Assembly (NCBI GenBank): GCA_016874005.1
Contig: VGVQ01000019.1
Location: 1 to 64,000, forward strand
DNA length: 64,000 bases
Reading direction: 5' to 3'
Source: Gemmatimonadota bacterium
Lineage (GTDB): Bacteria; Gemmatimonadota; Gemmatimonadetes; Gemmatimonadales; GWC2-71-9
Shown here: one piece after another, positions 4,130-20,246 of the stretch
Numbering within the stretch: position 1 is the stretch's first letter
Layout of the letters: each line of letters opens with the position of its first letter
Notes under the pieces: generated by a model
Told to the model about the DNA's origin: nothing
Database searches by the model: none
The model's input: the letters and a program-made list of their open reading frames with translations, nothing else
Position numbers and translations under genes: made by a program

Positions 4130-4495
4130 TCACCGGCACACCGCCGCGGCAACCACGGTGTCGATCAAGGTCCGCCGAGCCAGGCCGGCTCGAGCCTCGA
4201 GAGTAAACGCGGCCGCCAGCGAGTCGCCGGCGACCGACCAGGTGACCGTAACGCCCTCGGCCGTCGTCGTGGCACCGGCAGGCGGCGGCACGCACCCCGG
4301 GGCCGCGGCCAAATAGGCCGATTCGAGTCGGGCCACCTCGGTTTCCGCGGCCCGAGCCATCGCGAGCCACCGCCTGGCCGCGGCGCCCGCCTCCGCGGTC
4401 TGGGCAAGCCCCCGAAGGAGCACGGTGAACCCGGCGGCCGCAACCACCACGGCGAGGAGCGCCTCGATCAACGAGAACCCGGGTCTGGAAGTCAT
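4130..4495 (-). CDS. PilV/GspI-like minor pilin (prepilin-type N-terminus)
   Basis: A 121-residue pseudopilin. MTSRPG precedes the cleavage point and FSLIEALLAVVVAAAGF is the class III signal and assembly helix. The short globular part contains one Cys pair (PGC and the C-terminal VCR), possibly a disulfide. PilV and GspI have this size and are found beside PilW/GspJ. It heads a three-gene minor-pilin operon just downstream of an intrinsic terminator, so it probably has its own promoter in the 43 nt between. I could not identify that promoter. Confidence 0.75.
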   Translation of the reverse strand: MTSRPGFSLIEALLAVVVAAAGFTVLLRGLAQTAEAGAAARRWLAMARAAETEVARLESAYLAAAPGCVPPPAGATTTAEGVTVTWSVAGDSLAAAFTLEARAGLARRTLIDTVVAAAVCR

Positions 4496-4538
4496 GGCCA
4501 CAAGGTGCGATGCGGCGATCCGACCCCGATAACCAAAA

Positions 4539-4570
4539 CGCTCGCGGCGATGACCCAATCGCCGCGAGCG
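4539..4570 (-). terminator. Intrinsic terminator after the NtrC-like regulator
   Basis: A perfect 13-bp inverted repeat (CGCTCGCGGCGAT at 4539-4551, ATCGCCGCGAGCG at 4558-4570) with a 6-nt loop. On the minus strand it is followed by TTTTGGTT, giving the U-rich tail of a Rho-independent terminator. It separates the regulator gene from the minor-pilin operon. Confidence 0.85.
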
Positions 4571-4595
4571 CCGTCATTTGGTCAAACGAATCCGG

Positions 4596-5939
4596 CTAGG
4601 CGAGACCGTAGCGACGCAGCTTGTAGAACAAGGTCCGGAGGCTGATCCGAAGGAGTCGAGCCGCCTCGCGACGGGTTCCGCCGCAAGCCGCAAGCGCCCG
4701 GAGAATGATCTCCCGTTCGAAGGCCTCGACCTGGGGCTTGAGGGCGTACTCGCCGCCGCCGTTGCCGTTGGCGCGGCCGGCGCTGACGAGGACCGGGAAG
4801 TCGCTTCGGTCGAGCTTGCCGCTCGGGCTCAGGACCGCCGCGCGTTCGACCACTTGCCGCAACTCCCGGACGTTGCCGGGCCACGAATAGGAGGCCAACG
4901 CGGACATCGCCTGAGGGGTGATACTGATCGGGCGGGCGGTCTTCGACGCCACCTGCTGGAGGAAATGGGTCACCAAGGCAGGGACATCGTCCTTGCGATC
5001 CCGCAGTGCCGGCAAGTCGAGGGTCGTGACGCTGAGTCCGCGGGCCAGATCCGGCTGGATCTTGCCCTCGTTGAGCAGCCGCTCGATGGCCATTTCGGCG
5101 GTGGCCATGATCCGAACGTCGTTGTCGACGACCGCGACCGGACCAGTGGGCCGGCTCCCGTTGAATCGGTCGGCGCCGAGTCGGGAGACCAGGTATGCCT
5201 GGCTTTCCTGGGTCAGGACTTCGACTTCCTCGAGGAGCAGAGTACCGCGGCTCGCCGAGCGCCAGACCGACTGCGGATCGGACGGGCTCAATCCCCCCTC
5301 GCCCTCCGAGCTGGTGAAGAAGTCGGGAGTCGCCATGCAGTCGATGGCCACGAAGGCCCCGTCGCCCCGGCGGCTGAACCGGTGCATGGCCCGAGCCAGC
5401 AGCGCCTTGCCGGTACCCCGTTCGCCGGTGATCAGGACGGCCTGATCCGACGCCGCGGCCCGGGCCGCGACCTCGAGAATGGACCGCATCTTGGAGTCTT
5501 CCGCCACCAGCATCGGCTCGAGGCCCTTGGCCCCGATGGTGGCGCGGAGGGTGGCCACCTCGTGGCGCAGCCGCTCTCGCTCGTCGGCTTGACGGAGCGC
5601 GAGGAGCACCTCCTCGGCGAGGGCGGGCTTGCGGAGAAAGCCGTCGGCGCCTTCGCGCAGAGCCGAGGCCGCCGATTCGGCGTCGGTCGGACCGCCGCAG
5701 ACGAGGACGATGCCGGTCCCGCCGCCCGCCCGGTAGCGGCGCAGAAACGCCAGGCCACCGTCGTTGGGAAGACCCAAGTCGCAGACGACCGTGCGGATCC
5801 CGCAGGCCTGCGCTTCGAGGAGCGCGGCCTCGGGGTCGCGGCGCGCGACGACTTCGTAGCCCACCTCCTCGAGAGACGGGGCCACCGAGCGTCGCATCGC
5901 ATCGTCGGCATCCAGCAACAATACTCGCATCGCGCTCAT
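4596..5939 (-). CDS. NtrC-like response regulator with degenerate sigma-54 contact loop
   Basis: A 447-residue regulator. An N-terminal receiver (about 3-115) has the acidic pocket DADD, phosphoacceptor Asp in VVCDLGLP and Lys in LRKP. An AAA+ domain has Walker A GERGTGKALLARA and a Walker B-like LLLEEVEVL. A Fis-type helix-turn-helix ends the protein (TRREAARLLRISLRTLFYKL). The GAFTGA loop that contacts sigma-54 is missing: the segment reads SEGEGGLSPSDPQSVWRSAS. Family knowledge says this loop is needed to remodel sigma-54, so it may bind DNA without activating, or act as an antagonist. It lies downstream of the two pilin genes on the same strand. Confidence 0.85.
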   Translation of the reverse strand: MSAMRVLLLDADDAMRRSVAPSLEEVGYEVVARRDPEAALLEAQACGIRTVVCDLGLPNDGGLAFLRRYRAGGGTGIVLVCGGPTDAESAASALREGADGFLRKPALAEEVLLALRQADERERLRHEVATLRATIGAKGLEPMLVAEDSKMRSILEVAARAAASDQAVLITGERGTGKALLARAMHRFSRRGDGAFVAIDCMATPDFFTSSEGEGGLSPSDPQSVWRSASRGTLLLEEVEVLTQESQAYLVSRLGADRFNGSRPTGPVAVVDNDVRIMATAEMAIERLLNEGKIQPDLARGLSVTTLDLPALRDRKDDVPALVTHFLQQVASKTARPISITPQAMSALASYSWPGNVRELRQVVERAAVLSPSGKLDRSDFPVLVSAGRANGNGGGEYALKPQVEAFEREIILRALAACGGTRREAARLLRISLRTLFYKLRRYGLA

Positions 5940-5955
5940 CCGTTCCGACGCTCGA

Positions 5956-5984
5956 GGCCGCTCGGGGCGGATGCCCGAGCGGCC
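5956..5984 (-). terminator. Hairpin between the second pilin gene and the regulator
   Basis: A perfect 11-bp inverted repeat (GGCCGCTCGGG / CCCGAGCGGCC) with a 7-nt loop, 17 nt before the regulator start codon. No U-tract follows on the minus strand, so it is not a classical terminator. It could be an attenuator or an mRNA 3'-end stabiliser letting the pilins be expressed far above the regulator. Confidence 0.5.
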
Positions 5985-6011
5985 TGGCAGAAGCCAGCTA
6001 TCATGCTCCAC

Positions 6012-6407
6012 CTAGGAGCAGATGATGATCCCATCGATGGTACTCGCCGCCCCCGCCCCGACCTGGACCGTGCACTCGTCGATCCCCGACGCGATGGTGC
6101 TGTTGGACACCGTCGTGGTGTACCCCGTCGCCGTGGGCGAGACGATGATGGCGTTGTTGGCACCCGAGAACGTGTAGTTCGTCGCCGACTGCAGCTGGGC
6201 CAGGCTCGCGTAGGTGCCGAAGTCGGCCCAATACGCTTCCTGCGCCGTCATCACGTTCCGGATGTCGCTTCGGATCGCGCTCAGCTTCGCCTTGTCCTTG
6301 GTGGCCGCGAACTTCGGGATCGCGATGGTGGCCAGGATCCCGATAATGACCACGACGATCAGGAGCTCGATCAGCGTAAACCCGGCCGTCTTCTTGGTTG
6401 TCTGCAT
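6012..6407 (-). CDS. pilA: Major-type type IVa pilin, copy 1
   Basis: A 131-residue pilin. The leader MQTTKKTAG is followed by the mature N-terminus FTLIELLIVVVIIGILATIA, with the conserved Glu5 and a long hydrophobic assembly helix. Two Cys near the C-terminus (DEC and IIIC) can close a disulfide loop of 16 residues between them, close to the protein end. The start is fixed by a strong Shine-Dalgarno (GAGGAGGGAGAG). It is highly similar to the upstream pilin gene and probably shares its transcript, 106 nt downstream of it. Major versus minor role cannot be told from sequence alone. Confidence 0.9.
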   Translation of the reverse strand: MQTTKKTAGFTLIELLIVVVIIGILATIAIPKFAATKDKAKLSAIRSDIRNVMTAQEAYWADFGTYASLAQLQSATNYTFSGANNAIIVSPTATGYTTTVSNSTIASGIDECTVQVGAGAASTIDGIIICS

Positions 6408-6513
6408 CTCTCCCTCCTCTCCGTCGTTCGTCCGTCGATCAGAGTTTGGCGTGAAATGGGGCAGCGACTCGCCTACCAGAGCCACCGCCCCCTTTTCGCG
6501 CTCACGAAACCGC

Positions 6514-6897
6514 TTACGAGCAGATGATGACGCCGTCGAGCGTCGAAGCGGCGCCCGCGCCGACCTGGGTGCTGCACTGGTCGATCGCCGAGGTGATCGT
6601 GGAGTTCGAGATCGTGATGGTGAAGCCGGAAGCCGCCGGCGCAACCGACGCGGTGTTGCCCGCGGAGGTCGAGTAGTTGCTCGCCGACTGGACGTTCGCC
6701 AGGGAGCCGTAGGTGGCGAAGTCGGAGAAATACGCTTCCTGAGCGGTCATCAGGTTGCGCACGTCGGTCTTGACCGACGCCAGTTTCGCCTTGTCCTTGG
6801 TGGCCGCGAACTTCGGGATCGCGATGGCCGCCAAGATGCCGATGATCGCGACCACGATCAACAGCTCGATGAGAGTGAAGCCCTTACGATTGAACAT
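6514..6897 (-). CDS. pilA: Major type IVa pilin, copy 2 (promoter-proximal)
   Basis: A 127-residue pilin with the short leader MFNRKG and mature N-terminus FTLIELLIVVAIIGILAAIA. The mature region through AIPKFAATKDKAKL matches its tandem neighbour almost exactly, and the C-terminus again carries a Cys pair (DQC and IIC). The start has a good Shine-Dalgarno (GGAGG). It is the first gene behind the sigma-54 promoter at 6969-6983, with a leader of about 60 nt, so it is the best candidate for the major subunit. Pilins of this class form the polymer pulled back by PilT. Confidence 0.92.
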   Translation of the reverse strand: MFNRKGFTLIELLIVVAIIGILAAIAIPKFAATKDKAKLASVKTDVRNLMTAQEAYFSDFATYGSLANVQSASNYSTSAGNTASVAPAASGFTITISNSTITSAIDQCSTQVGAGAASTLDGVIICS

Positions 6898-6968
6898 GCT
6901 GCCTCCGAGTAGGTTTGTTATCGTACTTCGCTGAACCAAGCGGTTTCGCTCGTCCGCCAAGGTAATGA

Positions 6969-6983
6969 GCAACGATGGTGCCA
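6969..6983 (-). promoter_or_regulatory. Sigma-54 (-24/-12) promoter for the pilin genes
   Basis: On the minus strand the sequence TGGCACCATCGTTGCT matches the consensus TGGCAC-N5-TTGCW at every defined position: -24 box 6983-6978, -12 box 6972-6969. The predicted start of transcription is near 6957, 60 nt before the first pilin. Pilin genes in many Proteobacteria are sigma-54 and PilR dependent. The PilS/PilR-like pair at 17-20 kb is the obvious activator. Confidence 0.85.
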
Positions 6984-7000
6984 GGTGTACCAATTGTACG

Positions 7001-7029
7001 TAACGTGTTGCCAATAAACGCGTTATAAA
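7001..7029 (+). promoter_or_regulatory. Candidate promoter for the TMTC-like genes
   Basis: A good -10 box, TATAAA (7024-7029), lies 60 nt upstream of the first TMTC-like start. The hexamer 17 nt before it (TAACGT) is a poor -35. It is back-to-back with the pilin sigma-54 promoter, so both units share one regulatory interval of about 190 nt. Confidence 0.4.
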
Positions 7030-7088
7030 GCGGTTGCACAGCTTGCTGCAGGCCCCGACCGGCGCCCAAGCCTAGGAGATTGCAAGCG

Positions 7089-8762
7089 ATGACGTCCCCG
7101 AAGGTCTCTTCGCTTGCCCTGGCACTCCTCGGCCTCCTTGGCACCGTCACCATCTGGCCCAACGACTTCGTCCAGGACGACCAGGCCATCCTCGAACGCA
7201 ACGACCGGGTCCACTCCCTCTCGGACCCGGCCAGGTTCTTCACCGAATCCTACTGGCCCGAGCCCTACAACCCCGCCCTCTACCGCCCGCTCGCCTCGCT
7301 CGGATACGCCACCCAATGGACCCTCGGCGGGGGATCACCGTGGACCTTTCGGGTGGTCAGCATCGGGCTCTTGATCCTGACGGCCGTGGCGCTCTACCGG
7401 TTGGCTCGCCGCTTCGTCCCGGACCCCGTGGCCTGGCTCACGGCCGCCCTCTTCATCGTCCATCCGGTCCACGTCGAAGCGGTCGCGGCCGGGGTCAACC
7501 AATCGGAGCTGATGGTGGGCCTCCTGGCCCTCCTCGCCGTTCATGGATACCTCAGCCACCGCGAGGCCCCCAAGCGCTGGTTCGCCCCGCGGCTGTTCGG
7601 GCTCTTCCTGGTGGCCCTGATGTTCAAGGAAAGTGCCGCCATGATCCTGTTGTTGGTGGTGGCGGCCGAACTGCTGCTCGTTGGGGATTCCAGCCCGCTT
7701 CGCGGCCGGCTCGCCAGTCTCCGGCCGACACTGCTGGGGATGGCGCTGGCCGTCGCGCTGTTCGCCGCCATCCGCGGCGCCGCCTTGGGAGGGAATCTCC
7801 TCGGCACCTTCGTCGCCGAAGCCTTGGAGGGCCAGCCGCTGGGCGGGCGGGCCCTCATCATGCTCGGCGTGGTACCCCATTGGTTCCGGCTTCTGGTCTG
7901 GCCGAGCCATCTCAGGGCCGACTACTCCCCGATGGAGATCGACCCCGCTCCGGGGTGGGGCCTCCCCCAAACGGCTGGCGCGCTGGTCCTGGCGGCATGG
8001 CTCCTGGTGCTGGCCATCTCGTGGCGGCGGGCGCCGGTCTTGGCGTTTGGAATGATCTGGGCCGCCGTGACCCTCGCGCCGGTGAGCAACCTGCTGGTCC
8101 CGACCGGAATCGTCCTCGCCGAGCGGACCTTGTTCGTTCCGAGCGTGGGCTTCATGCTCGGGCTGGGCGGCACCTTCGCCATTGTCTGGGATCGATCGGG
8201 AAATGGACGCTGGCGGGGAGCCCTCACCGCCGTGGCGGCGACGCTGATCCTCCTCGGGGTGGCCCGGAGCACCAGTCGATTCACGGTGTGGCGTGACACC
8301 GAGACCTACTGGCGCCAGGCGATGATCGACGCGCCGCGTTCGTACCGGGCCAGGCAAGCCAACGCCCAGCTACTATTCGCCCGCGGCGACCGCGCCGCGG
8401 GCGAACGCGAGTTCCGTCGCGCCGCGGCCCTGTATCCCAAGGCGTGGGCCGGGTACTTCGGGCACGCCAACCGGCTTCGACTTGCCGGTATGTGTCACGA
8501 CGCAGCGATCTTCTACGATCGGGTGTTGATCGTGGAACCGGGGAGCGCGGCGGCACGGGCCGGGATGATCGCCTGTCTACTCTACGACGCCCGCTACCGC
8601 GAGGCGAGCGAGCGAGCCGCGGAAGGGGCTCGGGTCGCTGCCTCGGACGGCCAAGCACGGTTGTTCCGGCGGTTCCAAGCCATCGCCGATAGCGCGGCGG
8701 CGGCCCAGGCGCCGGCCCGAACCGTGCAGTTGACCGTTCGCCCGAGCGACTCTCTACCCTGA
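7089..8762 (+). CDS. TMTC-like membrane glycosyltransferase with TPR tail, paralog 1
   Basis: A 557-residue integral membrane protein with about 11 hydrophobic helices and a C-terminal part (about 430-530) resembling TPR helices. An acidic pair in the first periplasmic loop (DFVQDDQAIL), HPVHVEAVAAGVNQSE near residue 130 and PTGIVLAERTLFVPSVG near 340 are signatures of the DUF1736/TMTC family. Animal members are GT-C O-mannosyltransferases using a lipid-linked sugar donor. The ATG is chosen for the AGGAG 10 nt upstream. It is first of three tandem paralogs, divergent from the pilin genes. A role in glycosylating pilin or another exported protein is inference. Confidence 0.75.
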   Translation: MTSPKVSSLALALLGLLGTVTIWPNDFVQDDQAILERNDRVHSLSDPARFFTESYWPEPYNPALYRPLASLGYATQWTLGGGSPWTFRVVSIGLLILTAVALYRLARRFVPDPVAWLTAALFIVHPVHVEAVAAGVNQSELMVGLLALLAVHGYLSHREAPKRWFAPRLFGLFLVALMFKESAAMILLLVVAAELLLVGDSSPLRGRLASLRPTLLGMALAVALFAAIRGAALGGNLLGTFVAEALEGQPLGGRALIMLGVVPHWFRLLVWPSHLRADYSPMEIDPAPGWGLPQTAGALVLAAWLLVLAISWRRAPVLAFGMIWAAVTLAPVSNLLVPTGIVLAERTLFVPSVGFMLGLGGTFAIVWDRSGNGRWRGALTAVAATLILLGVARSTSRFTVWRDTETYWRQAMIDAPRSYRARQANAQLLFARGDRAAGEREFRRAAALYPKAWAGYFGHANRLRLAGMCHDAAIFYDRVLIVEPGSAAARAGMIACLLYDARYREASERAAEGARVAASDGQARLFRRFQAIADSAAAAQAPARTVQLTVRPSDSLP

Positions 8763-8771
8763 CGAGGTGCC

Positions 8772-10454
8772 ATGCGGCGGTGGTTGATCAGCGGTTCGTT
8801 GGTGGCCTTGGCTCTCGGGTCGTCGGTGACGAACCTGCGCAACCGGTACGCCCAGGACGACATGGGCATCATCCAGAAGAACTCGGTGGTTCACTCGCTC
8901 GCCGATCCCGGCCGCTTCTTCACCGAGTCCTACTGGCCCAAGCCGTTCAGCCCCGCGTTGTATCGACCGCTCTCGACCACGAGCTACGCGCTCCAGTGGG
9001 CGGTCGGCGACGGCCGCCCGATCGTTTTCCGGATCGTCAGCAACCTGCTCTACCTCGCCACCACGCTGGCGGTCTTCGCGCTGGCGACCCGGCTCCTGCC
9101 GCCGCTCGCGGCCTGGCTCGCCGCGGCGTTCTTCGCGGTGCATCCGGTTCACGTCGAGTCGGTCGCGGTCGCGGTCAATCAATCGGAACAGGTCGTCGGC
9201 TTGATCGCGGCGTTGCTGGTGCTGCGCTACCTCGGGATCCGAGACCGCGGCGCGATGACCTGGCGCGATGGGGCCGTGGTCTTCGGGCTCTACCTCACCG
9301 CCCTGATGTTCAAGGAGAGCGGTCTGGTCCTGATCGGACTGGTGGTCGCGGCGGAATTGACCCTGGTGCGGCGGGATCGGCCGCTCTGGCGCCGGCTCAA
9401 CGAAATCCGCCCGTTGCTCTTGGTCATGCTGCTGGGGGCGACCGCGTTCTTCGCGCTGAGGACCTTTGCGCTCGAGGGCAACGCCCGCGGCACCTTCACG
9501 GCCGAGGCGCTCGAGGGCCTCTCGATCGGGGGGCGGGCCCTGACGATGCTGACGGTGGTTCCCCATTGGTTCCGTCTGCTCCTCTGGCCAGCCCACCTCC
9601 GCGGCGACTACTCGCCCAGAGAGATCGAGACTTCCACCGGGTTCGGGCTGGCCGAGGCCGAAGGGGTGCTGCTGCTGGTCCTGGCGGTGCTGATCTTGAT
9701 CGCTGCCTGGCGCCGGGCGCCGGTGGCCGCCTTCGGCATCCTGTGGACCGGCATCGGGATTTTCCCGGTGAGCAACGTGCTCGTGCCGACCGGGATCGTC
9801 GTCGCCGAGCGGGTGTTGTTCCTCGCCAGCATCGGGATGATGATCACGATCGGGGCCCTCGCGGTTCCCCTGATCGGCTGGCTCGGAAGCCGCCCGAAGG
9901 TCTTCTCGCGGCTGGCCGCCGGCGCGGTCGCGGCGATCCTCGTGATGGGTTTGACCCGGAGCGCGAGTCGGCAGCGGGTCTGGCAGGACCAATTCACCTT
10001 CTGGTACCAAACGACCATCGACGCCCCGACCTCGTATCGGGCCCACCACGCCCTGGCCTCGCTCTTGTTTCCGATCGGAGCCCGGGTCTGGGCGGAGCGC
10101 GAGTATCGAACCGCCATCGCCCTCTACCCAAAGCAATGGGGCGCCACCTTCGACCTCGCCAACAAGCTCCGGCTCGAGGGCCAATGCGAACAGGCCGTCT
10201 GGCATTACCGGCAGGCCCTTCGGGCCGACCCTGAGCTGGAAAGCGCCCGAACCAGCGTGATCGCCTGCTTCCTCCATATGGGGCGCTACGGCGACGCCGT
10301 GGCGGAGGCCCGTGAAGCGATGAGCTACGCCACGAGGCCGCCCCGACTCCGCCTGTTCCAGCGGTTGTTCGTGATCGCCGACAGCGCGGCCCGCGTCGGG
10401 GCCGCTCCCGGTACGGTCCGAGTCACGGTGGCCGACCGCGACACCATGCCGTGA
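8772..10454 (+). CDS. TMTC-like membrane glycosyltransferase with TPR tail, paralog 2
   Basis: A 560-residue paralog of the preceding gene, starting 9 nt after it. The same landmarks recur in order: YAQDDMGII acidic loop, FFTESYWPKPF, HPVHVESVAVAVNQSE, LMFKESGLVL, VVPHWFRLLLWPAHLRGDYSPREIE and PTGIVVAERVLFLASIG, then TPR-like helices with LRADPELESARTSVIACF. The acidic pair in the first large loop is where GT-C enzymes keep their catalytic Asp. Copies 1 and 2 are closer to each other than to the third, suggesting stepwise tandem duplication. The acceptor protein is unknown. Confidence 0.75.
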   Translation: MRRWLISGSLVALALGSSVTNLRNRYAQDDMGIIQKNSVVHSLADPGRFFTESYWPKPFSPALYRPLSTTSYALQWAVGDGRPIVFRIVSNLLYLATTLAVFALATRLLPPLAAWLAAAFFAVHPVHVESVAVAVNQSEQVVGLIAALLVLRYLGIRDRGAMTWRDGAVVFGLYLTALMFKESGLVLIGLVVAAELTLVRRDRPLWRRLNEIRPLLLVMLLGATAFFALRTFALEGNARGTFTAEALEGLSIGGRALTMLTVVPHWFRLLLWPAHLRGDYSPREIETSTGFGLAEAEGVLLLVLAVLILIAAWRRAPVAAFGILWTGIGIFPVSNVLVPTGIVVAERVLFLASIGMMITIGALAVPLIGWLGSRPKVFSRLAAGAVAAILVMGLTRSASRQRVWQDQFTFWYQTTIDAPTSYRAHHALASLLFPIGARVWAEREYRTAIALYPKQWGATFDLANKLRLEGQCEQAVWHYRQALRADPELESARTSVIACFLHMGRYGDAVAEAREAMSYATRPPRLRLFQRLFVIADSAARVGAAPGTVRVTVADRDTMP

Positions 10455-12094
10455 CCGGGCGGGCCGCCCTGCCCCGCGGGCCGGCTGGCCCCTGGTTTCT
10501 GGTCGCCGGCCTCGCGATCGTCGCAACCGGCCGGGCCCTCGGGAATGGGTTCGCTTTCGACGACGTGCCCATCGTCTTCGAGAACGCCCAGGTCCATCAG
10601 CTCGCCCCACCATGGGAGTACGCCCAACAGAGCTACTGGCCCCCGAAGAACCTCGGCGACGCCTACCGGCCCTGGACCGTCTGGTGGCTCGCCCTCCAGT
10701 GGGCGCTGGGCGGGGGCGCTCCCGTCGTGTTTCATGCCTTCAGCCTGGTCCTCACGGTCGTCGTGGCGCTTCTGGTCTATCGACTCTTGGCCCGGCTGGT
10801 ATCGCCGGCCGGGGCGGTTGCCGGTGCCGCCTTGTTCGCGGTTCACCCGGTCCACGTCGAGGCCACCGCCAACGTGGTGGGCCAAGGCGAATTGTGGATG
10901 ACCCTCTTCGTCGTGGCCGCTGCACTGTGGTACCTCGATCTCAGAGAACGCTCGACCCTCCAGGCCAAGCACCGACTTGGCATCGCCGGCCTCTTGGTGC
11001 TGGCCGCCGGGTCGAAAGAACAAGGCGTCGTCCTCCCCGCTTTGCTGGCCCTGCTGGAATCGTGTCGGCCGAATGCGGGACCGGCCCGCGACCGAGCCAG
11101 AGCACTGCTCCCGTTCTACGGGCTCCTGGCCACAGTGTTGGTCGGATTCGTCGCCTGGCGCTACTGGGTTCTCGGCGACCTCGGGGGCGGGCCGCCGGCC
11201 GCGGGGCTCGACGGCCTCGGAGCCGCGGCCCGAGCTCGAGTGATGCTCCCGCTGGTGCCGGACCTCGCTCGGCTGCTGGTCTGGCCGCGTACCCTTCTCG
11301 CCCAATACAGCCCGCCGGCCCACGGTGCCCCGGTCGGGTTCGGATCGGCCGAGCTGCTCGGCGTGGCGCTAATCGTGGCTCTGCTGGGCGCGGTGGCGCT
11401 ATTCCGGGCCAGCCCGGTGAGCGCGGGGCTCCTGTGGGTGCTGATCGCGCTGGCGCCGGTCGCCAACCTGCTGTTCCCGACCGGGGTGTTGATCGCCGAG
11501 CGAACCCTGTTCCTGCCGAGCGTCGGGATCGCGATCGTGGCGGGCGCGTTGGTCGACGCCGGAATTCGCCGGCGGTGGGTGGTCGGTACCGTGGCGGCGG
11601 TGATCGGGCTGTGCCTGGCTGGCGCGGCGCGGAGCTGGTCGCGCCAAGTGGTCTGGCGGGACAACCCGACCCTCTTCGCTCAGACGGTCGTGGACGAACC
11701 ACGGAGCTACCGGGCCCATTTCGTCCTCGCCAAGGAATTGAGCCGGCGGGGCAACCCCGAGCCCGCCGCCGAGGCCTTCCGGGAGGCGGCGAGGCTCTAT
11801 CGGGGCGACCGGCGGGTCTTCGAGGAATGGGGCCAGCTCGATCGCGCGGCCGGCCGCTGCGACCTCGCGATCGCGATCTTCCAAGACGGGCTCCGTGACC
11901 ACCCTCGGGCGACCGTTCTCCGAAGCCGGCTCTTCGAGTGCCTGCTGACCATGGACCGGATCGACGAGGCGATCGCCACGGCTCGAGCCGGCCTCGACCT
12001 CGGGATGACCGAGTTCACCGAGCCGCTGGCCCGGGCAACCAGACGGCGATCCGACCGTCCCGCCCAGCCGGGACCCACTCCCGGGGGCCGGTAG
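10451..12094 (+). CDS. TMTC-like membrane glycosyltransferase with TPR tail, paralog 3
   Basis: A 547-residue third paralog. It begins at a GTG overlapping the stop of copy 2 (GTGA), so translation is coupled. The conserved points are FAFDDVPIV (acidic pair), FAVHPVHVEATANVVGQGE, LLFPTGVLIAERTLFLPSVG and a TPR-like C-terminal region. It diverges in the second loop (SYWPPKNLGDAYRPWTV) and in replacing NQSE by GQGE. The 3' end overlaps the 3' end of a convergent GT-C gene by 80 nt. Substrate unknown; different sugar or acceptor preferences from copies 1 and 2 are plausible but unproven. Confidence 0.73.
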   Translation: MTGRAALPRGPAGPWFLVAGLAIVATGRALGNGFAFDDVPIVFENAQVHQLAPPWEYAQQSYWPPKNLGDAYRPWTVWWLALQWALGGGAPVVFHAFSLVLTVVVALLVYRLLARLVSPAGAVAGAALFAVHPVHVEATANVVGQGELWMTLFVVAAALWYLDLRERSTLQAKHRLGIAGLLVLAAGSKEQGVVLPALLALLESCRPNAGPARDRARALLPFYGLLATVLVGFVAWRYWVLGDLGGGPPAAGLDGLGAAARARVMLPLVPDLARLLVWPRTLLAQYSPPAHGAPVGFGSAELLGVALIVALLGAVALFRASPVSAGLLWVLIALAPVANLLFPTGVLIAERTLFLPSVGIAIVAGALVDAGIRRRWVVGTVAAVIGLCLAGAARSWSRQVVWRDNPTLFAQTVVDEPRSYRAHFVLAKELSRRGNPEPAAEAFREAARLYRGDRRVFEEWGQLDRAAGRCDLAIAIFQDGLRDHPRATVLRSRLFECLLTMDRIDEAIATARAGLDLGMTEFTEPLARATRRRSDRPAQPGPTPGGR

Positions 12095-16437: not shown

Positions 16438-17159
16438 CTGGGCGTTCCTATCCCTATCAGAGACTGACCGAACGGCAGTGGCACGAATCGCTCCAACCGA
16501 AGCAATGGCACCATGGCGTCGAACCGCTGGACGTCCGCCAGCGAAATTCGACGGCGCCCCCTCACCCGCCCCTGGAACCACCACGCGACGACGCCGACTC
16601 GATTGAACCAGTACATCGTCTCGACCCGAAGACCGGCCCGGCCGAACGCCGCTGCCAAGCTCCGACGACCGTACCGGCGGAAGTGGCCGAGTTCCCGGTC
16701 CAGCTCGGAGTAGATGGAGGAAAGCGCCGGGACCAGGATCACCGCCCGCCCTCCTGGTACCAGCATCTCCTTGATCGAGCTCAAGGCCCCCGCGTCGTCC
16801 TCGATGTGCTCGACCACGTTCAACGCCACGACGGTATCGAGCCGATCGGCGGCGAACCGACTCCGGGCGGCCGGGTCCGGCAGCTCCAACGCTTCGACCC
16901 GAACGGTCGCCACCGAGGCAAACCGCTCGGATACCTGGCGACGGTACCACTCGTCCCGATCGGTCAGCACCATCGTTTCGGGCCGGGCCGAGAGGAGGTG
17001 AGCGGACATGTTGCCGATGCCGGAGCCCACCTCGAGCACCCGGCGGCCGACGTACGGGGCGATGGCCTGATACATCCAGGCGTTGTACTTCGGAGCGGCG
17101 GCCAGCAGCTCGAGCGTTTCGGCACCCGCCGGGTCGCTCGGCGAGATGGCGTCAGACAT
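16434..17159 (-). CDS. SAM-dependent methyltransferase, class I
   Basis: A 241-residue methyltransferase. Motif I is [15 protein letters not shown], with acidic residue Asp in VLTDRD. Motif II/III is [17 protein letters not shown], followed by [14 protein letters not shown] and the [13 protein letters not shown] segment common in UbiG/ubiE-like glycolipid and polysaccharide methyltransferases. It overlaps the preceding regulator gene by 8 nt and the following GT2 gene by 4 nt. In this operon it may methylate a lipid-linked or transferred sugar. The target is not visible in the sequence. Confidence 0.78.
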
Positions 17160-18531
17160 TCGCGCTCTGTTCCTCGTACCTCGAGAGCTTGCGATAGAGG
17201 GTCGACGGATCGATGCCAAGCACTTCCGCGGCCCGGGTCTTGTTGCCGCCCTCCGACTGGAGCACCCACATGATGTACGCTCGCTCGATCACCTCGAGCG
17301 ACGGATTGGGCGACGACCGCTCGGCCACCAGCGGTTCCTTGCGCCGCCGGGTAATTCGTTCCGGCAGCGCCACCGGCTCGATACTCTCGCCCTTGCTCAA
17401 GACCACGGCGTGCTCCAAGGCGTTCTGCAATTCCCGGACGTTCCCTGGCCAGTCGTACACCATCACGGCGTCGAGCGCCTCCGAGGTCAGGACCCGGACC
17501 GGATCGCCCCGCTCGGTGGCGAGGTCCTGGAGGAAACCGTCGATCAGCAGCACCAGGTCGTCGCGCCGTTCTCGCAAGGCGGGGAGTTCCAATGCGATGA
17601 CGTTCAATCGGTAGAACAGATCCGACCGGAACCGGCCTCGGCGAACCTCCTCCTCGAGGTCGCGGTTGGTCGCGGCCACGATCCTGACGTCGACTGGAAT
17701 CGGTTCGGTGGCGCCCACGGGAATGACCTCGCGTTCCTGGAGCACCCGCAACAGCTTGATCTGGAGCGAGGGCGGCATTTCGCCGACCTCGTCCATGAAG
17801 AAGGTCCCGCCGCGGGCCGCCGCGAAGAGGCCCTGCTTGTCCCGAACCGCACCGGTGAACGAGCCTTTCACGTGACCGAACAGCTCGCTCTCGAGGAGGT
17901 TTTCCGGCAAGGCACAGCAGTTGATCGACAAAAAGGGGCCATCAGCCCGACTGGACAGATTATGGAGGGACCGGGCGATGACTTCTTTGCCCGTGCCGCT
18001 CTCGCCTTGGATCAGCACCGTCGAATCGGTCGGGGCCACCACCTCGACCAGCCGAAGCACGTCGACGAAACGCCGCGACTTGCCGATTGGCCGCGACACG
18101 CTCGAGCGCTCACCCCGCCGCCGAATGTCCTGCTTGAGGAGCCGGTTCTCCACCCGGATCTGACGGAACTCGCAGGCTCGCCGGAGAATCGCCAGCAGCT
18201 CGTCGTTGGAGAACGGCTTCTGGATGTAGTAGAAGGCCCCCGCGTTGACGGCCGCGACCGCGGTCTGGAGCGACGCCTGCGCCGTCATCAGGATCACCGG
18301 CGTCATCGCGTCTTGTTCTTTGGCCGCCTGGAGAATGTCGAGCCCGCTCACCTGCGGCATCCGCACGTCGGTCAGGACGATGTCGTGATTGCCCGAGCGG
18401 ATCTGCTCGAGGCCCGCCTTGCCGCCCTGGGCGGTGGCGACCTCGAACCCTTCCTTGCGGAGCAGAATGCGCAAGGTGTCCAGGATCCCGCTCTCGTCGT
18501 CGACGATCAGGATCGAGGGCTGCTGACTCAT
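17152..18531 (-). CDS. Sigma-54-dependent response regulator, PilR/NtrC-like
   Basis: A 459-residue activator with all three domains intact. The receiver has DDES, phosphoacceptor Asp in VLTDVRMP and Lys in IQKPF. The AAA+ domain has Walker A GESGTGKEVIAR, the sigma-54 contact loop ESELFGHVKGSFTGA (Ser for Ala is a known functional variant) and Walker B GTFFMDEVGEM. A Fis-type HTH (NKTRAAEVLGIDPSTLYRKL) ends it. It overlaps the kinase gene by 4 nt. With that six-helix kinase it matches PilS-PilR, and a near-perfect sigma-54 promoter stands before the pilins. PilR identity is inferred from this context. Confidence 0.85.
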   Translation of the reverse strand: MSQQPSILIVDDESGILDTLRILLRKEGFEVATAQGGKAGLEQIRSGNHDIVLTDVRMPQVSGLDILQAAKEQDAMTPVILMTAQASLQTAVAAVNAGAFYYIQKPFSNDELLAILRRACEFRQIRVENRLLKQDIRRRGERSSVSRPIGKSRRFVDVLRLVEVVAPTDSTVLIQGESGTGKEVIARSLHNLSSRADGPFLSINCCALPENLLESELFGHVKGSFTGAVRDKQGLFAAARGGTFFMDEVGEMPPSLQIKLLRVLQEREVIPVGATEPIPVDVRIVAATNRDLEEEVRRGRFRSDLFYRLNVIALELPALRERRDDLVLLIDGFLQDLATERGDPVRVLTSEALDAVMVYDWPGNVRELQNALEHAVVLSKGESIEPVALPERITRRRKEPLVAERSSPNPSLEVIERAYIMWVLQSEGGNKTRAAEVLGIDPSTLYRKLSRYEEQSANV

Positions 18532-20246
18532 GCAACGTCCTCCGTGGGGAGCTTGGCGTGCAACAGAATGGTAAACGTGGTGCCCTGGCCCGGGGCAGAG
18601 TCCAGGAGCACCAAGCCCCGGTGCGCCTCGACCGCTCGCTGGACGACGGCGAGCCCCAGCCCGCTCCCGCCAGGACGGCCTGACACGAATGGCTGGAACA
18701 ACCGTTCCCGGAGATCGGGGTCGATCCCGGGGCCGTTGTCGGTCACCCGGAGCCGAACTGGTTGCTCGAACTCGGCGCCGCGGGGGAGCTCGCTCGGGTT
18801 CGGCAGGTCGATGGCCACGGTGACCTTTCCCTGTCCCTTGAGCGCCTGGACCGCGTTGAGCAGCAGGTTCCAGACCGTCCGGTGGAGGAGATCTTCGTCG
18901 GCCTGGATCAACAATGGCTCTCCCTCGACCGCGATCTCGATCCCGGCGCCACCGTCGGGATGCTCCCGCACCAAGCGAACCGCGTCGGTGACGACACCGA
19001 GCAGGTTGATCGCTCGGAATTGGCTGGCGCGAACTCGGGAGAAGTCGAGGAACTCCCCGAGAAGCCGGCTCAACCGGTCGCTCTCACGGAGCACCAGGTC
19101 GCCGAGGAGCCGCTCGTCGGGGTCGTCGCGCCGGTCTCGGACCAATTGCTCGACCGCGCTGCGGATCGACGCCAGCGGGTTTCGGATCTCGTGAGCGAGC
19201 GACGCCGACAGCGCCGCCACCGCCTCGAGCCGCTCGGCCCGGAGGTGAAGCTCTTGGAGGTACTGGGCATCCGAGATGTCGGTGAAGATCGCGGTGACCG
19301 ATGGAATGGTCTCCGACTCCCGCTCGAAGGTGGTGGTCGACAGGCCGATCGGGAACGAACGCCCCTCGGGCCGGTGCACCATCCCCTCGGCACGGGGAAC
19401 TCGCCGCCCCCGGCGGATCCCCGTGATGACGGCCTGATACAGCTCCGGCGCCCGCCGCTCGAGCTCCTCGAGAAACGGCCGGCCGAGGTGCCGCGAGGCG
19501 TCGAGACCGAGGATTTGCTCGGCGGTGGGATTCAAGAACGCCAGGTCGCCCCGGCTGTCCACGGTCATCACGCCCGAGCGAATGTTGCGGAGGATCTCGT
19601 CGGCTTCGAGGCGGACCTGCTCGAGCTCGGTCTCGAGTTGCGATTGTTCCTCGACCGCGATCCGGAGCCGCTGGCCCAAGAACGCCACCACCACGAACAC
19701 CAGGGTGAACACCGCGACCTGCCCCCATAGCCCCGGGCTGAACGCGTGGTCGGGCCGGGCCAGGGTCGCGTTGGCCAGGAACAGCGCCGCCCCGAACAGC
19801 GCCATCACGATCCCGGAGCGAAGCGGCATCAAGAGGCCATAGATCGCGAGCACCAGCACGTACAGCGCCGCCCACCCGCTGTCCTCCGCCCCGGCGAAGT
19901 GCACCAAGGCCGTCACCAGCAGCAGGTCCATCGCCGCTTGGCTCTGGAGAAAGCCCAACTGGGGCCGCTCCCGCCGGACGAAGACCACGTAGGCCGCGTA
20001 TCCCGTGACCGCGAGAGCAAAGACCACCGTGATCGCCGCGATGAATGCCACGTATCGGGCGAACTCGGCCCCGTCGGCCGGGGGGCGGCTGAAGGCCAAG
20101 GCGGCCTGAATCAGGGTGGTGACCGCCAGTACCGTCCGGCCCAGCAGGAGCCACCACATCAACACGGTGAAGCTCGGAAGCCCGAGACGGGCATCGAGAA
20201 CGGGCGGAGCGGGACGCTCCGGCGGCTGGTTGACAGACTGGTTCAC
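18528..20246 (-). CDS. Membrane histidine kinase, PilS-like, with PAS domain
   Basis: A 572-residue sensor. Residues about 25-190 form around six membrane helices with little periplasmic loop, as in PilS. A short coiled coil leads to a PAS domain (about 215-335, EEILRNIRSGVMTVDSRGDL region). The dimerisation/phosphoacceptor domain has SLAHEIRNPLASIRSAVEQL and is followed by the ATPase domain (NLLLNAVQAL, DNGPGIDPDLRERLF, GRPGGSGLGLAVV). PilS senses pilin in the inner membrane; whether this one does is inference. Start is a GTG at 20246 lacking a clear Shine-Dalgarno; a later start is possible. It is the first gene of the six-gene operon. Confidence 0.83.
   Translation of the reverse strand: MNQSVNQPPERPAPPVLDARLGLPSFTVLMWWLLLGRTVLAVTTLIQAALAFSRPPADGAEFARYVAFIAAITVVFALAVTGYAAYVVFVRRERPQLGFLQSQAAMDLLLVTALVHFAGAEDSGWAALYVLVLAIYGLLMPLRSGIVMALFGAALFLANATLARPDHAFSPGLWGQVAVFTLVFVVVAFLGQRLRIAVEEQSQLETELEQVRLEADEILRNIRSGVMTVDSRGDLAFLNPTAEQILGLDASRHLGRPFLEELERRAPELYQAVITGIRRGRRVPRAEGMVHRPEGRSFPIGLSTTTFERESETIPSVTAIFTDISDAQYLQELHLRAERLEAVAALSASLAHEIRNPLASIRSAVEQLVRDRRDDPDERLLGDLVLRESDRLSRLLGEFLDFSRVRASQFRAINLLGVVTDAVRLVREHPDGGAGIEIAVEGEPLLIQADEDLLHRTVWNLLLNAVQALKGQGKVTVAIDLPNPSELPRGAEFEQPVRLRVTDNGPGIDPDLRERLFQPFVSGRPGGSGLGLAVVQRAVEAHRGLVLLDSAPGQGTTFTILLHAKLPTEDVA

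Follow-up and report, generated by a model that had tools for sequence, protein, structure and literature searches.

The window, the 64,000-nt stretch of contig VGVQ01000019.1 from a Gemmatimonadota bacterium that was analysed here, carries two type IV pilin genes, a gene for a degenerate NtrC-type regulator and, elsewhere, a PilR-like and PilS-like pair. The features are as follows.

4537..4572, minus strand: terminator-like hairpin just 3′ of the regulator stop codon
4596..5939, minus strand: degenerate NtrC-type regulator, 447 amino acids, with receiver (REC), AAA+, lid and Fis-type helix-turn-helix (HTH) domains (open reading frame and Pfam)
4596-4598, minus strand: stop codon of the regulator
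4608..4730, minus strand: Fis-type HTH of the regulator, the best-conserved domain across degenerate orthologues
5226..5240, minus strand: Walker B region of the regulator, LLLEE (Asp to Glu)
5262..5309, minus strand: SEGEGGLSPSDPQSVW, replacing the sigma-54 (GAFTGA) loop, regulator residues 211-226
5403..5426, minus strand: Walker A of the regulator, GERGTGKA, Lys178 present
5598..5924, minus strand: receiver domain of the regulator, with phospho-Asp54 and Lys104 present, acidic pair D-A, and Gly for the Ser/Thr switch
6012..6407, minus strand: pilA2 (type IV pilin); the regulator follows after 73 nt, with no gene between
6514..6897, minus strand: pilA1 (type IV pilin)
6968..6983, minus strand: sigma-54 -24/-12 box of pilA1, TGGCACCATCGTTGCT, with zero mismatches to the consensus used
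7034..7051, minus strand: inverted repeat CTGCA-N8-TGCAA, located 68 nt ahead of the -24 box and found in other members of the genus too
7075..7086, minus strand: enhancer-like half-site CTTGCAATCTCC (CTTGCA), 103 nt before the -24 box
17152..18531, minus strand: PilR-like sigma-54 activator with GSFTGA
18528..20246, minus strand: PilS-like histidine kinase

Pfam detected Response_reg (48 bits), Sigma54_activat, AAA_lid_14 and HTH_8 in the regulator, in agreement with a sequence-only reading that had assigned receiver, AAA+ and Fis domains to this open reading frame. That reading had also called these domains complete, which held for their presence but not for the residues of the receiver and AAA+ domains. 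The receiver quintet was D, A, D, G, K, with Ala at the second acidic position and Gly at the Ser/Thr switch. The AAA+ domain had its fold and its Walker A Lys, but Walker B was Glu-Glu and the arginine-finger positions were Gln and Gly. The phospho-Asp, the receiver Lys, the Walker A Lys, the Walker B Glu and the sensor-II Arg were retained. We take the labels GAFTGA, Walker A/B, sensor and arginine finger, as placed on this protein, to be those of the PspF/NtrC literature. The Sigma54_activat match scored 82.6 bits, versus 236 bits in the PilR-like protein, where the GSFTGA noticed earlier was indeed found.

The GAFTGA loop, by which group I bEBPs are recognised, was missing from the regulator and SEGEGGLSPSDPQSVW stood in its position, as had been claimed. 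Five other species of the window's genus (L052-L055 and L058; 76-83% protein identity) lacked the motif too; the absence is therefore real, and a sequencing error was excluded as its cause. Sigma-54 is encoded in the same genome, which has, besides the regulator, seven strong sigma-54-activator domain matches and three weak partial ones. The four PilR rows formed a separate group (100*) among the outgroup in the tree, and the regulator is not a PilR orthologue.

An AlphaFold2 model of the regulator was built from eight sequences (mean pLDDT 75.8, pTM 0.51). It preserved the bEBP AAA+ fold, with a match to FlrC over 230 residues (Z 24.4, rmsd 2.8). Residues 211-220, in the replacement loop, had pLDDT below 50, and the stretch replacing the sigma-54 loop, whose sequence is unrelated to GAFTGA, is probably disordered according to the model.

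With a threshold of E <= 1e-70, orthologues were found in 59 of 102 family genomes and in six genomes from the neighbouring families f2 and f3. The resulting 65 loci, window included, were compared with their flanks. The regulators of L086-L089 were excluded from this count, L086 and L087 serving as outgroups. L058, a fragment at a contig end, was omitted from the trees and from the residue table of 64 rows. Loci L185, L186, L187 and L189 have pilA without the kinase-regulator pair alongside.

A typical canonical genome had a gene of about 400 amino acids between pilA2 and the regulator, abutting or overlapping the regulator start. HAMP, HisKA and HATPase_c domains were detected in all four full-length copies scanned. 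This histidine kinase was directly upstream of the regulator at 53 of the 65 loci (49 full length, including L108, which a contig end cuts; four cut by contig ends; L119 counted as present), and the sigma-54 loop was intact at every one of these 53. At two loci, L060 and L095, only broken remnants were seen, that of L060 being HAMP only, and at ten there was no trace. The regulator was degenerate at 11 of these 12 loci, L058 being partly visible, so that the state of the kinase and that of the regulator matched closely. The upstream sequence of L055 was limited to 220 nt. Among members of the window's genus, pilA2 and the regulator were 4-73 nt apart where visible. A search of the nine main-group genomes, G013 apart, for a close kinase copy at another place gave none; a search of G013 gave a remnant only, and one of G093 a weak match only, with 37% identity.

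Among the 43 family genomes without an orthologue match, four of those inspected (G025, G027, G010 and G110) have pilA genes with neither kinase nor regulator adjacent, and contig ends hide others (G036). The kinase-regulator pair is a cassette that has been gained or lost.

The residue table had 54 canonical and 10 degenerate rows. Canonical rows had the GxFT loop, the Walker A Lys, the Asp-Glu of Walker B, both arginines and the receiver residues; GAFTSA in L085 and GAFTGS in L062 were loop variants, and L066 was a canonical row with part of the receiver missing in the frame used. In the degenerate rows the loop was lost or mutated in 10 of 10 and the Walker B Asp was lost in 9 of 10, with the Walker A Lys and the sensor-II Arg present in all. 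The phospho-Asp was present in 9 of 9 main-group rows, L060 included. The replacement loop differed in sequence and length among degenerate regulators. Canonical orthologues (L062, L072 and 51 others) occupy the same slot behind the pilins and mostly have the same recognition-helix core, but they differ from the window regulator in their intact receiver, ATPase and GAFTGA and in the kinase upstream.

Loop, Walker B Asp and arginine fingers were thus lost jointly in the regulator and kept in all 53 kinase-bearing orthologues, which makes it unlikely, as the sequence-only reading had expected, that the regulator itself activates sigma-54. Sigma-54 and sigma-54-type promoters are present, and the protein might still engage sigma-54 through a loop that we did not recognise. 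The joint change of three elements and a replacement that varies between relatives and is predicted to be disordered make this extremely improbable.

In a tree of 30 chosen rows with the loop columns omitted, the window's genus, g3, g2 and g18 formed a clade (98/97). An rpoB tree, with a usable row from 21 of 28 genomes, also gave the main group minus G013 as a clade (91/99); G013 was placed without resolution, and a grouping of all nine including G013 was compatible with the data (p-AU 0.11). L060 (g9) fell in the main group in a quick tree (83) but with g8/g55 in the careful 30-row tree (85/81). L098, with loop GAFPGA, Asp changed to Gly and Lys to Leu, was placed beside canonical L093 (100/99), and joining it to the main degenerate group was rejected (p-AU 2e-9). 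No kinase was found in the L098 spacer. Pro is the preferred change at the Thr position of GAFTGA among about 110 deviating homologues in the survey as given in part of PMC3162934, and Thr to Pro inactivated Bradyrhizobium japonicum NifA in the portion of PMC4641369 used. Because L098 stands next to canonical L093 and its grouping with the others was rejected, at least two conversions were independent, perhaps three with L060, in addition to L095, where the kinase has become a pseudogene but the regulator is not converted.

In L095, the kinase pseudogene lies 5′ of an intact regulator, that is, an activator without its kinase. This locus is an apparent first step of conversion, and it shows that loss of the kinase need not go together with decay of the regulator.

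We compared the domains for signs of continued constraint. Outside the window's genus, mean identity among degenerate rows was 0.76 for HTH, 0.44 for REC and 0.40 for AAA; among canonical rows it was 0.60, 0.71 and 0.70. Within the genus, where the HTH was nearly invariant, the dN/dS of the regulator by the Nei-Gojobori method was 0.133 overall, 0.097 for REC, 0.184 for AAA, 0.084 for the lid and 0.062 for HTH; these values are rough because dS was around 1 or above, with synonymous sites near saturation. PilR of the same genus (four relatives and the window) had 0.058. In canonical genus g28, values were 0.053 for REC, 0.060 for AAA and 0.184 for HTH, but the HTH was also low in canonical g8 (0.052) and g14 (0.088). 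The shift of constraint in the degenerate regulators therefore rests mainly on the AAA domain, which is now the least constrained. The phospho-Asp and the low REC value together suggest that some receiver role may persist.

The many lost catalytic residues, and long branches inside the degenerate group in the quick tree, could be those of a functionless gene in decay. This is very improbable given that the reading frame is open at every one of the 11 degenerate loci (in L058 up to the contig end), the low dN/dS with dS above 1, and the near-invariant HTH. As judged from these substitution patterns, the degenerate regulator is under purifying selection and is not pseudogene-like.

From spacing, the regulator is probably cotranscribed with the pilins. 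The terminator scan found 2 candidates versus 1.6 expected, and the hairpin at the regulator end had a fold z of -4.2.

PilR, sigma-54 and the consensus box at pilA1 are all present, the regulator is encoded within the pilin cluster, and it keeps the AAA+ fold and the P-loop. The sequence-only reading had suggested that the regulator might oppose or modulate this activator; antagonism could take the form either of competition for PilR sites or of mixed AAA+ rings unable to engage sigma-54. The recognition-helix core, however, was SLRTLFYK in all 10 degenerate rows and DPSTLYRK in all four PilR rows, and this difference speaks against the two proteins competing directly for a shared site. The position of the half-site was conserved in many relatives, whether or not the regulator was intact, and the half-site, at about -104, was also seen in G025, G010 and G087, which have pilA with no regulator beside it. 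For the latter reason the half-site is more probably PilR's than the degenerate regulator's. We consider antagonism of PilR unlikely. The sequence-only reading had not taken in the lost kinase, the canonical orthologues or the eroded receiver.

The inverted repeat TTGCA-N8-TGCAA (about -68) was tried as the regulator's own site and rejected: it occurs in only part of the genomes, and the neighbouring half-site occurs where the regulator is absent. Single-base shuffles were the null for the conservation of half-site and inverted repeat. In a whole-genome search for half-site plus box, 14 of 151 genomes matched, the pattern being so strict that this count says little.

The pilA1 box had 0-1 mismatches at 8 of 8 visible loci of the main group and L060, and mostly 2 in the nearest canonical relatives. 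Compensation of regulator decay by a stronger pilA1 box was rejected as a general link because G093, where decay was independent, still has the 2-mismatch box of its genus. Two members of the window's genus, L052 and L058, have a run of four pilA-like genes, of which two each have a -24/-12 box of their own. In G093, contig ends L156 and L157 overlap across pilA2 and the regulator start with slightly different sequences.

GAFTGA-less descendants of bEBPs that act with sigma-70 are known (parts of PMC10274813 and PMC3162934). The regulator shares two traits with this group: its loop was lost from a GAFTGA-bearing ancestor and its Walker A is kept. The NtrC proteins of Caulobacter and Rhodobacter capsulatus, which act with sigma-70, resemble it in having REC, AAA+ and Fis domains and a deleted L1 loop (PMC10274813, in part), but they keep the NtrB kinase and use the phospho-Asp, whereas the window regulator has lost its kinase and has an eroded receiver switch. 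TyrR, DhaR, HupR, VpsR and YplP are likewise homologues of sigma-54 activators with GAFTGA lost or changed; they belong to other families with other inputs, and a staged kinase-linked series is not described for them in the part of PMC3162934 consulted.

The regulator could similarly be an activator or repressor of sigma-70 type that needs ATP or another nucleotide without hydrolysing it, like VpsR or R. capsulatus NtrC, the latter requiring ATP binding rather than hydrolysis in the part of PMC10274813 consulted. The residue pattern of the 10 degenerate rows, with the Walker A Lys and the sensor-II Arg kept, the Walker B Asp mostly gone and the loop lost or mutated throughout, is consistent with this, and VpsR was among the structural matches of the model (Z 23.1, rmsd 13.8, 353 aligned), the likeness to c-di-GMP-binding bEBPs (FleQ, VpsR) being one of fold. 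A simple consensus scan, on the other hand, detected no sigma-70 promoter-like site in 4300-7200. We regard this as rather doubtful, although a little less so than antagonism of PilR.

NtrC-type control of pilin genes has precedents in PilR, Myxococcus NmpR and Neisseria Npa (parts of PMC6211767 and PMC6528607), NmpR being a second NtrC-type regulator beside PilR (PMC6211767, in part). As described there, these proteins work with kinases, whereas the window regulator is no PilR orthologue and has no loop.

The reading we lean towards, with somewhat better than even confidence in it as a whole, is that of an orphaned, sigma-54-blind regulator working by DNA binding. The protein descends from the response regulator of a kinase and sigma-54-activator pair that related genomes have behind two pilin genes. 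The lineage of the window has lost the kinase gene by deletion, as well as the receiver switch, the sigma-54 loop and the ATP-hydrolysis residues, in an order suggested by the relatives; the fold, the nucleotide-binding Lys and above all the DNA-binding domain have been retained. At the level of sequence, the compared loci showed descent, kinase loss, loss of sigma-54 and hydrolysis residues, and ongoing selection, under which the HTH is the best-preserved domain. On these grounds it appears very likely that the protein derives from a canonical activator linked to a kinase and no longer engages sigma-54, and DNA binding is likely the function that remains. The regulator would now be a phosphorylation-independent DNA binder made from the pilin transcript and acting on its ancestor's sites, its targets presumably those of the canonical form. 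What speaks against this orphan DNA-binder reading is that we could not link the regulator to any binding site. The likely outcome would be that it feeds back on the pilins or on further pilus genes and does so without remodelling sigma-54; that the pilin operon itself is the target is a tentative suggestion.

Loss of the partner kinase may also be what repeatedly triggers the change of this sigma-54 activator to a DNA-binding protein blind to sigma-54, a generalisation that we hold plausible at somewhat less than even chances. The kinase would decay first (L095), then the receiver and the loop (L098, L060), then the ATPase (the window's genus), and the DNA-binding domain would become the best-kept part, with several stages still alive in relatives. 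Known GAFTGA-less activators are isolated endpoints, whereas start, intermediates and end were found here at one locus, and losses happened independently at least twice; this makes it possible to test in what order and from what cause the conversion proceeds. The new part is the kinase-linked, staged conversion, sigma-70-acting GAFTGA-less relatives being already known; in titles and abstracts of open-licence papers, we found no report of the locus or of a staged kinase-linked loss. For this lineage it is a mistake to label such genes "sigma-54 dependent" on the strength of their domains.

Adjoining the pilins, on the plus strand at 7080-12094, are three tandem, similar multi-membrane open reading frames (560, 560 and 547 amino acids) with repeat-like C-termini, which by their look we assume could be glycosyltransferases.
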